A DNA stretch of 58,025 nt from Bacteroidales bacterium Bact_09 (lineage in GTDB: Bacteria > Bacteroidota > Bacteroidia > Bacteroidales > UBA932), in assembly GCA_001603455.1 (NCBI GenBank), contig LUZA01000059.1:1-58025 (forward strand). Direction: 5' to 3'. Shown piece by piece: positions 4,152 to 55,360 of this stretch. How positions within the stretch are numbered: position 1 is the first letter of the stretch; every line of letters begins with the position of its first letter. The notes under the pieces were generated by a model. The model worked only from the letters and a program-made list of their open reading frames with translations, was not told the origin of the DNA and ran no database searches. The translations under genes were made by a program, and so were the position numbers.

Positions 4152-5765
4152 CTAAAAAAGTGCGTTGGAGGATTCAGGCGCATAGGATTTTTCCATGGCC
4201 AGCAATTTTTGCTTGCGTCCCAATCCGGCGGCGTATCCTACCAGCGATCCGTCTGCCCCAATAACACGGTGACATGGTATAATAATGGCAAAGGGATTGG
4301 CATAATTGGCCTGACCCACAGCACGTGTGGCTTTGGGATTGCCTGCCATCTGGGCCAACTCTGCATAGGATATGGTAGTGCCGTAAGGGATCTTCAGCAG
4401 ATTAGCCCATACGTTCTTCTGAAAATCAGTGCCTTCTATGCGCAGTGGCAGGTCAAAACTGCGTCTTGTCCCCTTGAAGTATTCATCCAGCTGTTCGATG
4501 GCCATAAGCAGCACGGGCGGTTTGGACTCCCCGGGGTCCATAAGCTCTCTGCTTTTGTAAAAACCCTTGAGGTTATAATTGTCCTCAAACCCGCAGGCAG
4601 TCAGTTCTTCAAATTCATTTGCCGAGAAAGAAAAATTCCCCAGGGGCGTACTGCAGTAGACCTTATACCTCGGGACCTGGGGTCCTCCTGTAAGCAGGGT
4701 ATACATATGGCGGGCGATCCGCTCCGTGGCACCGTCCATGCCAAGGATCCTTTGGAGGCGCTTGTAATCGGCCAGAATGCTTCTGCGTCGCTGGCGGCCT
4801 TTGAGCAACAGGCGGAGTTCCTCTTCCATCCGTAGGGGATTGCAATCCTTTTGAATGAGTTCACGGACCGAGGCTTTCTCCAGTATCAGGTTGGGCAGTG
4901 AAATGTGCTTGACCTTGATGATCAGCCGGGCGATGGCCATCGAAAGGGAATTGCCTCCGTAACAGACCACTTGCGGACAATTGAGCAATGCTGCCTCGAG
5001 GGTGGCAGTGCCACTGGTAACGAGTGCCGCCTCGGCCTGTTGCATGATCTCATATGTGTGCCCATACATTACGCGTACCGGAAGGTCTTTCAGGATCTCG
5101 TCGTAGACCGTTATGGGGATCGAGGGAGTTGCGGCAACGACCCACTGGTAACCCTTGAATCTGTTGATGACCTGTGCAGCCCTGGGAAGCAGGAATTTGA
5201 TCTCGTTCAGACGGCTGCCGGGCAGGATGGCAAGTACCGGTTCCGCCCCGATCTTGTACTTTTTACTGAAGACATCAGGCGGGTCCAGTTCTTCCATGGC
5301 TACAGAAAGGTTATCCAGCGCCGGATTGCCCAGATAAACCGCGTTGATCCCTTTTGATTCAAAATAATCAACCTCGAAGGGGAAGATTACGTATAACTGC
5401 GTCACGTGTTTGCGGATGCTTCTGACACGCCGTTCCCTGGATGCCCATACTTTGGGTGCTATATAGTATAACGTTTTGATGCCTTTGCGGGAGGCAAATT
5501 TGGCCATGGGCAGGTTGAATCCCGGATAATCTATGAGTATAAGCGCATCGGGATTATATTCCAAAAGGTCTTTCTTGCAGCGGGACAGTTCCCTGAGGTG
5601 CGAACCCAGTCTGGCGGCGATTTCTACAAATCCCATAACCGCCGACTTTGTGTCGGGACCTCTGTATTTGAATTCAGCCAATGAATCAGCTTCTGCAAGT
5701 GCGTGCATGAGCTGTCTGGCGTATTGATCGCCGGATACTTCTCCGGCAATGATGAAGTATCGCAT
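4152..5765 (-). CDS. lpxB: Fusion: lipid-A-disaccharide synthase (LpxB) + O6-alkylguanine-DNA alkyltransferase (Ogt)
   Basis: One uninterrupted 537-codon frame encodes two normally unrelated enzymes. Residues 1-360 are LpxB, the GT19 enzyme that joins UDP-diacylglucosamine to lipid X at the inner membrane: FIIAGEVSGD (4-13), IDYPGFN (78-84), YIAPKVWASR (101-110), LGNPALD (145-151), LPGSRLNEI (181-189), VTSGTATLEAAL (249-260). Residues about 366-528 are an Ogt/MGMT DNA-repair protein: FQKNVWANLLKIPYGTTISY (448-467), the arginine-finger region ATRAVGQANYANP (479-491) and the suicidal acceptor cysteine in PCHRVIG (C498). No stop, shift or internal Met marks the junction. The LpxB part also looks about 13 residues short around 32-45, where E. 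coli LpxB has GPRMQAEG...ELAVMG. It follows surE by 6 bp, a pairing common in this phylum. Confidence 0.88.
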   Translation of the reverse strand: MRYFIIAGEVSGDQYARQLMHALAEADSLAEFKYRGPDTKSAVMGFVEIAARLGSHLRELSRCKKDLLEYNPDALILIDYPGFNLPMAKFASRKGIKTLYYIAPKVWASRERRVRSIRKHVTQLYVIFPFEVDYFESKGINAVYLGNPALDNLSVAMEELDPPDVFSKKYKIGAEPVLAILPGSRLNEIKFLLPRAAQVINRFKGYQWVVAATPSIPITVYDEILKDLPVRVMYGHTYEIMQQAEAALVTSGTATLEAALLNCPQVVCYGGNSLSMAIARLIIKVKHISLPNLILEKASVRELIQKDCNPLRMEEELRLLLKGRQRRRSILADYKRLQRILGMDGATERIARHMYTLLTGGPQVPRYKVYCSTPLGNFSFSANEFEELTACGFEDNYNLKGFYKSRELMDPGESKPPVLLMAIEQLDEYFKGTRRSFDLPLRIEGTDFQKNVWANLLKIPYGTTISYAELAQMAGNPKATRAVGQANYANPFAIIIPCHRVIGADGSLVGYAAGLGRKQKLLAMEKSYAPESSNALF

Positions 5766-30153: not shown

Positions 30154-30702
30154 CTATTCAGACGCAGTGTCGAGCATATCTCCGGGAACGTTTTCGGATT
30201 CCCTGTACCATTTACCCTGAAGGCGCATTACCTGTTCCACCAGGTCGCGGACGCAACCCCGGCCGCCCGTAAAGGGGGATATGTACTGTGCCACATGACG
30301 GACCTCGGTACAGGCATCGGAAGGACAAAAGGGGAGCCCGCAGGCTTTCATGGGCGGGATGTCGGGAATGTCGTCACCCGCATAGGCTACCTGGGAAGGG
30401 TCCAGACCGTACCTATTGCAAAAATCGCGGAATGCCGGCATTTTATCCCTGGCTCCGGAATAGATGTCCTTTACGCCAATGTTCCTGTAACGTTTTTCGA
30501 CAGATGGAGAGACGCCTCCCGTTATAATGGCAACCTGATAGCCGTGTTCTATCGCTATGCGGATGGCATAGCCGTCACGTGCATAATGTGTGCGGAACAG
30601 ATCGCCGTCAGGCATGGAAATAACACCTCCGTCTGTAAGGACACCGTCAACATCAAATGCAAAAGCTTTGATTTTGTATAGTTTGCTTTTGTAATTACCC
30701 AT
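30154..30702 (-). CDS. kdsC: KdsC-type HAD phosphatase (Kdo 8-phosphate phosphatase)
   Basis: Removes phosphate from Kdo 8-phosphate, the step after KdsA in making Kdo for the lipopolysaccharide core. The HAD nucleophile motif is FAFDVDGVLTDGG (14-26), motif II IITGG, and the late motif YAGDDIPDIPPMKACG. The absence of a cap domain and the length of 182 residues match KdsC. Related CMP-sialate or other sugar-acid phosphatases cannot be fully excluded, but lpxB and kdsA in the same window support the Kdo role. It heads kdsC-maf and is divergent from a lipoprotein gene. Confidence 0.88.
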   Translation of the reverse strand: MGNYKSKLYKIKAFAFDVDGVLTDGGVISMPDGDLFRTHYARDGYAIRIAIEHGYQVAIITGGVSPSVEKRYRNIGVKDIYSGARDKMPAFRDFCNRYGLDPSQVAYAGDDIPDIPPMKACGLPFCPSDACTEVRHVAQYISPFTGGRGCVRDLVEQVMRLQGKWYRESENVPGDMLDTASE

Positions 30703-48867: not shown

Positions 48868-50256
48868 TCAATAGCCCAACACTTTGAGCATGGATTTGTA
48901 AGTCTGTTCTTTAGAGAAAAGTTTTGTGTAATACTCACCGTTCTCTTCTCCAATAATGATCATTTTGGGAGCCGGCATAAGGCAATGCTGAACGCCCCCA
49001 AATCCCGATATAGATTCCTGGTAGGCCCCGGTATTGAAGAAGCCTATGTAAAGCGGTTCACAATTCTCGTTTTTAGGTAAGAAAACCGCATTGGCATGCG
49101 CCTCGGCATTGTAGTAATCCTGCGAATCACAGGTAAGTCCACCTAGGAAAACCCGCTGGTAGGGCTCATTCCACTTGTTGATGGGTAAAAGGATGAAGCG
49201 GCGTTTGATGCCCCATGTATCGGGTAATGTGGTCATAAAGGAAGAGTCTATCATATACCATCTTTCGCGGTCATTTTGCTGTTTTTCTCCCAAAACCTGA
49301 TATATATTTGCGCCGCTTTCACCAACGGTGAACGATCCGAACTCGGTAAATATGTCTGGTTCCTTCACATTGCGGCTTGTACATATACTTTTGATCTGGG
49401 CAATGATCTCTTCTGTCATATACTCGTAATCGTAATCAAAAGACAGGGAGTTGCGTACAGGAAAACCTCCGCCCAAGTTCAGCGAATCGAGTTCAGAACA
49501 GAAATTTTTTAAATCGCAATACACGTTCACACACTTAGCCAGCTCATTCCAGTAATAGGCATTGTCCTGTATCCCGGTATTGATGAAAAAATGGAGCATT
49601 TTGAGTTTGAACTTTGGATTACGCTTGATGTATTTGTGATAAAAAGGGACAACGTCGCTGTAGCGGATGCCCAGGCGGCTGGTATAAAATTCGAATTTAG
49701 GTTCTTCTTCAGCGGCAATGCGGATGCCAATCTTACACGTATCGCTAACGGCCTTGTCCAGTGCTTCTACCTCGGGCATATTGTCCAGAATGGAAATGGT
49801 ATTCTTCCAGCCCGACTTGATGAGATTGGCAATATTATCTATGTATTGCTGCTTCTTATAACCGTTACAGATAACGTACAGGTCCTTATCCACGATCTTC
49901 TGTTCGTATAAGGCTTCTATTAAGTTGATGTCAAAGGCAGAAGATGTCTCTATGTGGATATCGTTCTTGAGTGCTTCTTCCAGAACAAATGAAAAATGAG
50001 ATGATTTGGTACAATAGCAGTAGTGGTATTCTGCCTCGTAATCGACCTTGGCCATGGCAACATTGAACAATCTTTTAGCCTTTTGTATCTGTTTGCTTAT
50101 TTGTGGTAAATAATAGAACTTCAGGGGTGTTCCATATTGATGTATCAAATCCATAACGGGAATATCGTGAAAGAGAAGTTCTCCGTCTTCCACCCTGAAT
50201 TCTTCCTGCGGAAAGTCAAAACTTTGCTGAATCAGATCGATGTACTTGTTTTTCAT
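48868..50256 (-). CDS. Orn/DAP/Arg decarboxylase-family enzyme, probable arginine decarboxylase
   Basis: A PLP-dependent fold type III decarboxylase of 462 residues. The PLP lysine is K84 in YCYCTKSSHF, the glycine-rich phosphate-binding loop is LGGGFPV (near 264), and CEPLYIGFFNTGAYQ (about 398-412) matches the C-terminal active-site Cys block. The family in Bacteroidota with the N-terminal FYYLPQISKQIQKAK pattern is generally called arginine decarboxylase, entering polyamine synthesis; substrate choice here is inferred, and diaminopimelate or carboxyspermidine decarboxylation are alternatives. It is divergent from tamL, with a -7 box 60 nt upstream, and is followed by the TrmH-family gene. 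Confidence 0.82.
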   Translation of the reverse strand: MKNKYIDLIQQSFDFPQEEFRVEDGELLFHDIPVMDLIHQYGTPLKFYYLPQISKQIQKAKRLFNVAMAKVDYEAEYHYCYCTKSSHFSFVLEEALKNDIHIETSSAFDINLIEALYEQKIVDKDLYVICNGYKKQQYIDNIANLIKSGWKNTISILDNMPEVEALDKAVSDTCKIGIRIAAEEEPKFEFYTSRLGIRYSDVVPFYHKYIKRNPKFKLKMLHFFINTGIQDNAYYWNELAKCVNVYCDLKNFCSELDSLNLGGGFPVRNSLSFDYDYEYMTEEIIAQIKSICTSRNVKEPDIFTEFGSFTVGESGANIYQVLGEKQQNDRERWYMIDSSFMTTLPDTWGIKRRFILLPINKWNEPYQRVFLGGLTCDSQDYYNAEAHANAVFLPKNENCEPLYIGFFNTGAYQESISGFGGVQHCLMPAPKMIIIGEENGEYYTKLFSKEQTYKSMLKVLGY

Positions 50257-52632: not shown

Positions 52633-54536
52633 AGTTTCATTCCTTTCCGGTACAATCTGAACATTTCTATGGCCTGGTATTCTGCCATGCCCAGTTTGTC
52701 GTAAAGCACTGCGGTGTTGTGGTTGCGTTCCTCGGCTCTTTTCCAGAATTCCCTCGGGTCATTCCCGGGGAACATGGCGGGATCTTTCTGGCTTTGATGG
52801 CGGAAGATGGCATTGCGCTTGATGATGACTTCCTCGGGGCTCAGAGGTACAGCCATATCCACATCGGCCACGTCCCATTCCTGCCAGGCTCCCCGGTAAA
52901 GCCACAGGCGGCAATCGTTGATCCAGGGCCTTTCGTTCAGTCTATCAAGTGCTTCCAAAATGGACATATAGCAGATACGGTGTGTACCATGCGGATCGCT
53001 CAGGTCGCCAGCAGCAAAGATCTGGTGGGGTTTTATTTCTTCCAGCAGGTTGCAGATGATGTTAACGTCTTCTTTGGATAAGGGTTTTTTCTTGACGCCC
53101 CCCGTTTCATAGAAAGGCATCTCCAGAAAATGAACATTCTCTTGTTTGATACCCAGGTATTCACAGGCCGATTTGGCTTCTCCGCGCCGGATCAGGGTCT
53201 TTACCTGGCGGATGGCAGGAGAGTCGGGTTCACCCGGTTTCTTCCTGTTCAGATCTTCCCTGGCCTCCAGGAAGATGGCACGGGTTTTTTTCTGATCCAA
53301 CCCGTAAACGGGAGAAATTTCTTGCAGAAAATCCAGGAAACGGGTCACTTCGTGATCGAAAACGGCAATGTTCCCTGAAGTGTGATAGGCCAGATGCAGG
53401 ATGTGGCCCTGTTGCGAAAGACGGGCTACAGTTCCGCCCATCGAAATCACATCATCGTCGGGGTGGGGACTGAAAACGATCACACGCTTGGGATAGGGGA
53501 GCGCCCTTTCCGGACGGGTGGAATCGTCGGCATTGGGTTTGCCGCCGGGCCAGCCCGTTATGGTATGCTGCAGGCTGTTGAACGTATCAATGTTGATCTT
53601 GCTGAAAGGACCGCGTTCTGTGATCAGGTCACTCATCCCGTTGTCATTGTAATCCCTTGCCGTCAGCTTCAGGATGGGTTTGTCCAGGTGGCGACAGAGC
53701 CAGAAGACCGCTTTGCGGGTAAGTTCTTCAGTCCACACACAAGGTCCTGTAAGCCAGGGAGTTGCAATGCGTGTGAGGTCTGCAGCGGCAGCACGGTCGA
53801 TGATCACTTCTATCTGTGTATGGTTTTGCAGAAAAGTGGAGGGGTGGGTCTCATTGACCTTTCCTTCAACCAAGTCATGTATGGTTTTGGATTCGCCTTC
53901 TCCCCAGGCAAGATAGTAGATGGTCTTGCTTTCCATGATGGTCTGGATACCCATGGTCAGGGAGTAATTGGGAACATAATCCACACCAAAAAATTCACTG
54001 GCCGCAGAGATACGGGTGTTTGTATTGAGGGTAATCAGGCGGGTACGGGAGCTGTAAGGGGAACCGGGTTCGTTGGATCCCATGCCCGACGTGATCATCA
54101 CGTCTATTCCCCCGTAGGAGGCTATCTTCTTTTCAAAATCGGCACAATGACGCGCTACCTGAGAACGGGGAATATCACCGTCCAGACAATGAATCTGTGT
54201 GTGGGGAATGTCCAGTACATCGAATATATACTCTTTTAAAAACCGGTAATGGGACTGTATTTCATCCTTGTGCAGGGGATAAAACTCGTTGATTCCGAAC
54301 ACCACTACATTCTTAAAGCTTCTGCCCCTGCCACAGGCGCTGGCAAAAAGTTCATAAACCGGTATCATGGCCGGCCGGGCAGACAAGCCCAGAACTAGTT
54401 TTTTATTCTGGGATTCTTTCTGTGTTAAAAGGGTCAGAATATTATCCACCAGGTACGACGAGGCTTCCACCTGGTCATCATAGATGAATACCGGCAAATT
54501 TTCGTACCGTCTGCTAAAATCGTGATTCAAAGTCAT
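52629..54536 (-). CDS. NagB-like domain fused to a PIG-L deacetylase
   Basis: A 635-residue two-domain protein of a type common in Bacteroidota and usually annotated as glucosamine-6-phosphate deaminase. Residues about 15-260 have the NagB fold, but key sites are altered: the phosphate loop is LGLSARPAMIPVY rather than a GGTP-like loop, the Asp72 region (E. coli numbering) reads GINEFYPL, and the His143 segment GHIAFNEP is shortened to GMGSNEPGS. Residues about 350-620 are a LmbE/PIG-L deacetylase with an intact zinc motif FSPHPDDDVISMGG and DPHGTH. I infer an active deacetylase with a regulatory or binding NagB-like module, not a deaminase. It overlaps kdsA by 4 bp. Confidence 0.85.
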   Translation of the reverse strand: MTLNHDFSRRYENLPVFIYDDQVEASSYLVDNILTLLTQKESQNKKLVLGLSARPAMIPVYELFASACGRGRSFKNVVVFGINEFYPLHKDEIQSHYRFLKEYIFDVLDIPHTQIHCLDGDIPRSQVARHCADFEKKIASYGGIDVMITSGMGSNEPGSPYSSRTRLITLNTNTRISAASEFFGVDYVPNYSLTMGIQTIMESKTIYYLAWGEGESKTIHDLVEGKVNETHPSTFLQNHTQIEVIIDRAAAADLTRIATPWLTGPCVWTEELTRKAVFWLCRHLDKPILKLTARDYNDNGMSDLITERGPFSKINIDTFNSLQHTITGWPGGKPNADDSTRPERALPYPKRVIVFSPHPDDDVISMGGTVARLSQQGHILHLAYHTSGNIAVFDHEVTRFLDFLQEISPVYGLDQKKTRAIFLEAREDLNRKKPGEPDSPAIRQVKTLIRRGEAKSACEYLGIKQENVHFLEMPFYETGGVKKKPLSKEDVNIICNLLEEIKPHQIFAAGDLSDPHGTHRICYMSILEALDRLNERPWINDCRLWLYRGAWQEWDVADVDMAVPLSPEEVIIKRNAIFRHQSQKDPAMFPGNDPREFWKRAEERNHNTAVLYDKLGMAEYQAIEMFRLYRKGMKL

Positions 54537-55294
54537 TTGAATGAAATATTTGTTTCTTTATGGATGCTGATATATGTTTGACGTAAAGCAATTATCGTGC
54601 GTATCAGGTCTTCCATCTTACTTAAATTAAGCATATTGCTTCCATCGGAAAGGGCTTCCTGTGGCCTGGGATGTGTTTCCACAAAAATGCCGTCTACACC
54701 ACATGCCACTCCGGCAGCAGCCATGGATCCTATCAATTCCGGTTCACCTCCTGCAATGCCTCTTTCCTGGTTCGGTATCTGAAGGGAATGCGTAATATCA
54801 AGTACCACAGGTACGCCCAGTTTTTTCATTTTGGGGATGCTGCGCACATCAAAGATCAGATCCGAATATCCAAACTGAGTGCCTCTTTCGGTCAGGATAA
54901 TCTTATCCTTTGTGGCCCCAAACTGGAGCAATTTTTCCACCACAAACCGCATCTGGTCCGGTGCCAGAAATTGACCTTTTTTTACATTGACCATCTTTCC
55001 GGTTTGTGCGGCTGCTTTCAGCAGTGAGGTCTGACGACAGAGAAAAGCCGGTATCTGGATAATGTCAATACCATATTCGGCGGCCATCAGTGCCTCGTTG
55101 GGTGTATGCACGTCGGTAGTAACACGGATACCGTAATACTGCTTGATTGTCTGCAGGATCTCCAGTCCGTTCCGGTCACCAATACCGGTAAAGGAATCTA
55201 CCCTGGTACGGTTTTCTTTCCTGTAGGAAGACTTGAATATCAGCGGCAGATCGTATTTTGCGGTCAAAGAACAGAGCCTTTCGGCAATTTCCAT
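54533..55294 (-). CDS. kdsA: Kdo-8-phosphate synthase (KdsA), N-terminally broken
   Basis: The condensing enzyme for Kdo synthesis (PEP + arabinose 5-phosphate). The frame from 55294 encodes KSSYRKENRTRVDSFTGIGD, TTDVHTPNEA, IQIPAFLCRQTSLLKAAAQT, VNVKKGQFLAPDQM, LTERGTQFGYSDL and HSLQIPN, all canonical. It begins at MEIAERL, which is internal to normal KdsA. The missing start is visible just upstream in another frame: MELNGFFLISG from an ATG at 55332, preceded by a good -7 box. Between the two, the GPC motif (its Cys is a metal ligand in class II enzymes) and about eight further residues are lost. This looks like a frameshifting deletion, or an assembly error. The N-terminal strand is therefore absent from the encoded protein as read. 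Confidence 0.8.
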   Translation of the reverse strand: MEIAERLCSLTAKYDLPLIFKSSYRKENRTRVDSFTGIGDRNGLEILQTIKQYYGIRVTTDVHTPNEALMAAEYGIDIIQIPAFLCRQTSLLKAAAQTGKMVNVKKGQFLAPDQMRFVVEKLLQFGATKDKIILTERGTQFGYSDLIFDVRSIPKMKKLGVPVVLDITHSLQIPNQERGIAGGEPELIGSMAAAGVACGVDGIFVETHPRPQEALSDGSNMLNLSKMEDLIRTIIALRQTYISIHKETNISFK

Positions 55295-55332
55295 GCACGT
55301 CCAGATATTAGAAAAAAACCGTTAAGTTCCAT
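55295..55332 (-). other. Out-of-frame 5' fragment of kdsA
   Basis: The 38 bp from the ATG at 55332 encode MELNGFFLISGR, the usual KdsA N-terminus, in a frame shifted relative to the following MEIAERL. The frame of MEIAERL itself has a stop nine codons upstream and no alternative start codon in between. Confidence 0.7.
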
Positions 55333-55352
55333 GATATATAAATTTTCTTGGT

Positions 55353-55360
55353 CAAAGGTA
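55353..55360 (-). promoter_or_regulatory. -7 promoter box for kdsA
   Basis: TACCTTTG on the minus strand matches TAnnTTTG and lies 20 nt before the ATG at 55332, supporting that ATG as the original kdsA start rather than the one at 55294. It sits close to the rarA stop. Confidence 0.45.

Follow-up and report, generated by a model that had tools for sequence, protein, structure and literature searches.

A deletion of 25 bases was found at the start of kdsA in the genome of Bacteroidales bacterium Bact_09 (contig LUZA01000059.1; the window is the whole stretch of 58,025 nucleotides analyzed here). It breaks the reading frame and removes the metal-ligand cysteine of the enzyme. The reported sequence probably does not represent the fixed state of the organism and would then be either an assembly or consensus error or a strain allele that is in the minority or arose very recently. 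KdsA, which condenses PEP with arabinose-5-phosphate, catalyzes the first committed reaction in the synthesis of the sugar Kdo, and Kdo is normally required for viability. The locus contains the following features:

55353–55360, minus strand: TACCTTTG, putative promoter box upstream of kdsA, fitting the Bacteroidota −7 box TAnnTTTG
55264–55332, minus strand: original kdsA start and 22-codon frame, MELNGFFLISGRAWKLPKGSVL followed by a stop, truncated by the frameshift (translation)
55298–55299, minus strand: deletion junction GGAC/GTGC, 25 bases absent and frame shifted (DNA alignment of seven genomes and protein comparison)
54533–55294, minus strand: remaining kdsA frame of 253 codons from an internal Met (MEIAERL) at 55294, in a different frame from the 5' part

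Direct reading showed that the promoter box and the ATG at 55332 are both undamaged, and several relatives also carry a TAnnTTT(G) box 5' of their kdsA ATG. In the alignment, MELNGFFLISG at the protein start pairs with MEMNGFFLIAG of the relatives, and the normal beginning described in the first-pass annotation is intact. The 5' frame (frame 0) ends with a stop codon at 55266–55264. The 253-codon frame was assigned to KDO8P synthase by NCBIfam and matched the TIGR01362 profile with 315.8–316.7 bits (cut-off 314) over profile positions 18/19–254 of 258. Three of the four metal ligands (His, Glu and Asp) are kept in this frame and the Cys ligand is gone.

The kdsA region of the window genome was aligned with that of six congeneric genomes, and the gap was found to be exactly 25 columns long (GGAC/GTGCATGG, junction 55299/55298). 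The 25 bases are present in all six congeners, so that the gap is unique to the window genome among the seven. The alignment thus demonstrates the frameshifting deletion previously proposed from the window alone, and the earlier estimate of about 25–28 bp and about eight residues is refined to 25 bases with nine codons affected. Protein and DNA comparison agreed that the residues removed are PC(V/I)(V/I)ESEK(L/I), including the metal-ligand cysteine, which bears out the suspected loss of the GPC segment. The corresponding segment of the relatives is GPC(V/I)(V/I)ESEK(L/I)CM, and the longer stretch reads FFLIAGPCV(I/V)ESEKLCMEVAEKL. By alignment, the nine codons correspond to P10–L18, including Cys11, in the numbering of the Aquifex aeolicus KDO8P synthase. 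In metal-dependent KDO8P synthases the metal is held by Cys, His, Glu and Asp, with Asn in place of Cys in the metal-free form, and Cys or Asn occupies the N-terminal ligand position in all KDO8P synthases (PMC3052366). The N-terminal G-P/M-C/N motif was kept in 75 of the 77 related kdsA genes where it could be scored automatically, the exceptions being the window gene and one GLC variant; the segment containing the motif was missing altogether only in the window gene. Note that no clear direct repeat was found in the junction region of the relatives and no run of N at the deletion in the window. Replication slippage is a possible origin of the deletion.

In order to evaluate constraint on the remaining frame, pairwise dN/dS was calculated; it was 0.074–0.098 between the window genome and five congeners, compared with 0.052–0.176 among intact relatives, the ratios being rough since the synonymous distances are near saturation. 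With G007 as the outgroup, the branch dN was about 0.052 for the window genome (G000) and about 0.070 for its congener G004; there is no acceleration of nonsynonymous change on the G000 branch. None of the 69 family-invariant columns, defined from 28 relatives, is altered after the deletion, and several intact congeners deviate at one to four of these columns. In addition, no in-frame stops were found in the remaining frame. The gene therefore has the frame-disrupting lesion of an established pseudogene and neither relaxed constraint nor further lesions. It also has the His, Glu and Asp motifs and the invariant residues of a KdsA, while the segment for the N-terminal Cys (metal form) or Asn (metal-free form) is deleted. 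The lack of decay indicates that the deletion either arose very recently or does not reflect a real fixed state.

A general excess of indels in the assembly was considered and rejected, as no such excess was found in the window or in about 180 genes elsewhere. No other disrupted conserved genes were found in the window in comparison with four syntenic relatives. The comparison of about 0.71 Mb of G000 with 0.81 Mb of G004 covered 182 orthologous frames each way and revealed 16 and 18 out-of-frame blocks, about as many in one direction as in the other. Most of these blocks are located at 5' ends and probably lie upstream of the true starts; kdsA was recovered as a positive control. The similar counts show that kdsA is an isolated lesion, in an assembly that is not error-rich and a genome that is not pseudogene-rich. 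A search for a second assembly of the same species among the GTDB contigs returned none, in a collection where near-identical records may be omitted.

Several lines of evidence favor an error or an unfixed allele: the gap occurs in one of seven congeners, there is no second kdsA and no decay, the rest of the pathway is open and all congeners that are 84% or more complete keep kdsA. The metagenome consensus would then have miscalled kdsA or picked up such a strain allele. Against an error stand the absence of an out-of-frame excess in about 180 frames and the undisrupted state of the other window genes; moreover, the loss of 25 bases with no visible long junction repeat is atypical of short-read errors. 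A sequence error, already listed among the options in the first-pass annotation, is still the likeliest of them, although a mutation that is very recent or limited to a strain would look the same in the assembled sequence. Under either reading, the break in kdsA is an ordinary kind of mutation. Like recent null alleles and indel artefacts in metagenome-assembled genomes, it is a single indel in a frame that is otherwise conserved, with no other decay; unlike the usual homopolymer errors, it is longer and affects a normally essential gene. As a single indel in a single metagenome-assembled genome, it carries little weight on its own.

The alternative is that the loss of kdsA is genuine, very recent and fixed, so that the organism lacks Kdo and lives on Kdo-free lipid A as a step towards loss of the whole module. 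We consider this unlikely, although more probable than the other rivals. The clean appearance of the rest of the assembly is in its favor, and the state of the remaining Kdo and lipid A genes is against it. The genome contains open frames for kdsB, kdsC, waaA, lpxB, lpxC and lpxK, two of which are located in the window, as the first-pass annotation had stated:

30154–30702, minus strand: kdsC (Kdo-8-phosphate phosphatase), open frame; TIGR01670 134.8 bits, above the cut-off
4152–5765, minus strand: lpxB fused to ogt/MGMT, open frame; TIGR00215 and TIGR00589 above the cut-off

The ogt part of the fusion is an O6-methylguanine-DNA methyltransferase domain, and a small stretch close to the N-terminus, found in the usual LpxB, seems to be missing from the LpxB part. 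The possibility that lpxB had been deleted and artificially fused to ogt in the window was rejected because the identical architecture of 537 aa is found throughout the genus, with a match in 12 of its 13 genomes.

The suggestion that the cell tolerates the loss is not supported in this genome, given the retained genes and a kdsA without a second lesion or relaxed constraint. Within the genus, kdsA was found in all congeners that are 84% complete or more and was missing only from G002 and G005 (79–82% complete); no near-complete genome of the genus lacks it. The argument for tolerance comes from sister genera. Seven genomes from seven genera of the same family (G017, G018, G022, G027, G028, G029 and G034; 95–100% complete) contain neither kdsA nor a kdsB above the family cut-off. 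All seven contain lpxB, lpxC and lpxK, and waaA is missing too in five of them, so that the lineage may tolerate loss of Kdo. Misses of a single gene were seen in a few other near-complete genomes, but they hardly account for the joint absence of kdsA and kdsB from seven genera. This pattern of gene content suggests that the seven organisms may make lipid A without Kdo. A weak kdsB match was found in G017, near a NeuB gene. Since NeuB was found only in G017 among the genomes tested, replacement of Kdo by sialic-acid-like sugars is not general. As a separate observation, waaA was not found in G003 (93% complete) and G053 (99% complete), though both contain kdsA and kdsB; G053 also lacks lpxC, and these misses may be assembly gaps.

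The sister genera without kdsA have generally lost kdsB too, and often waaA, and a fixed, tolerated loss of Kdo in the present species is therefore not supported. Whole-pathway loss of the Kdo2-lipid A genes has been described (PMC3087551). The window resembles those cases in having a Kdo/lipid A gene that is non-functional as written. However, entire gene sets are gone in them, whereas in the window genome kdsA alone is hit and the remainder is intact. A literature search on Kdo-less Bacteroidota found nothing direct. If the deletion were real and fixed, Kdo synthesis would have just been lost with the downstream Kdo genes intact, as the first step of a convergent loss that the sister genera have already completed with lipid A synthesis retained, and a Gram-negative lineage would have been caught at the moment of giving up Kdo; we regard this as improbable. 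The absence of Kdo genes from several near-complete genomes of the family that keep the core lipid A enzymes is more interesting than the kdsA lesion itself.

Returning to the gene as it stands in the assembly, ribosomes that begin at the normal start would stop after 22 codons, and the internal start at 55294 would give a protein of 253 residues that has neither the cysteine ligand nor the first strand. Slippage by −1 at the T7 run (T TTT TTT) would produce a 266-residue protein (MELNGFFSNIWTCMEIAERL...), in which the GPC segment is likewise missing. Comparison with the KdsA of Aquifex aeolicus (PDB 1fwn; 3-deoxy-8-phosphooctulonate synthase, metal-dependent Cys class) showed that the remaining 253 residues match, including the metal-ligand motifs THSLQ (His), VETHP (Glu) and LSDGS (Asp). 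Unlike that enzyme, the window gene lacks the tail of the first strand and the GPCxxESEx segment with the Cys ligand, and its frame is broken. Given the broken frame and the loss of both the first beta strand and the cysteine that binds the metal, we infer that no active KdsA would be made by any of these translation routes. It is very unlikely that a functional enzyme is still produced from the internal Met or by the slip. The T7 run is suitably placed, a −1 shift there fuses both kdsA frames without a stop, and the part downstream has three metal ligands and every invariant residue. However, GPC(V/I)ES, and with it the metal-binding cysteine, stays missing by both routes, and the T7 run, being common to relatives because Phe-Phe is encoded there, is no special feature of the window gene.

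The first-pass annotation had also allowed for a second kdsA elsewhere, an option that the genome search does not support. The metagenome-assembled genome (1.93 Mb, 165 contigs) is 96.7% complete, with about 3% missing, and a family profile and protein search of this assembly revealed a single KdsA match above the cut-off and no second copy. The other matches, on contigs C125 and C7, are of the DAHP-synthase type and much weaker as KdsA. The C125 protein scored 389 bits with the DAHP synthase profile (cut-off 335) and only 91.6 bits with TIGR01362, and its gene adjoins trp genes (trpA); the C7 protein was assigned by its size, which resembles that of DAHP-synthase-type proteins of relatives. 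That one of the two makes Kdo-8-phosphate as a side activity is scarcely credible: the C125 protein is homologous to KdsA and its gene was not seen in several other congeners, but its score and trp neighbors are explained by a role in aromatic amino acid synthesis, and congeners without it need no replacement. The DAHP synthase gene beside trpA is located at L002 1222–2241 of C125, a similar match was seen in G010, and several other congeners have only the other DAHP-synthase-type match. Finally, a putative decarboxylase-like gene of the window (48868–50256, minus strand) has about 93–95% protein identity across the genus and is more conserved than its neighbors.
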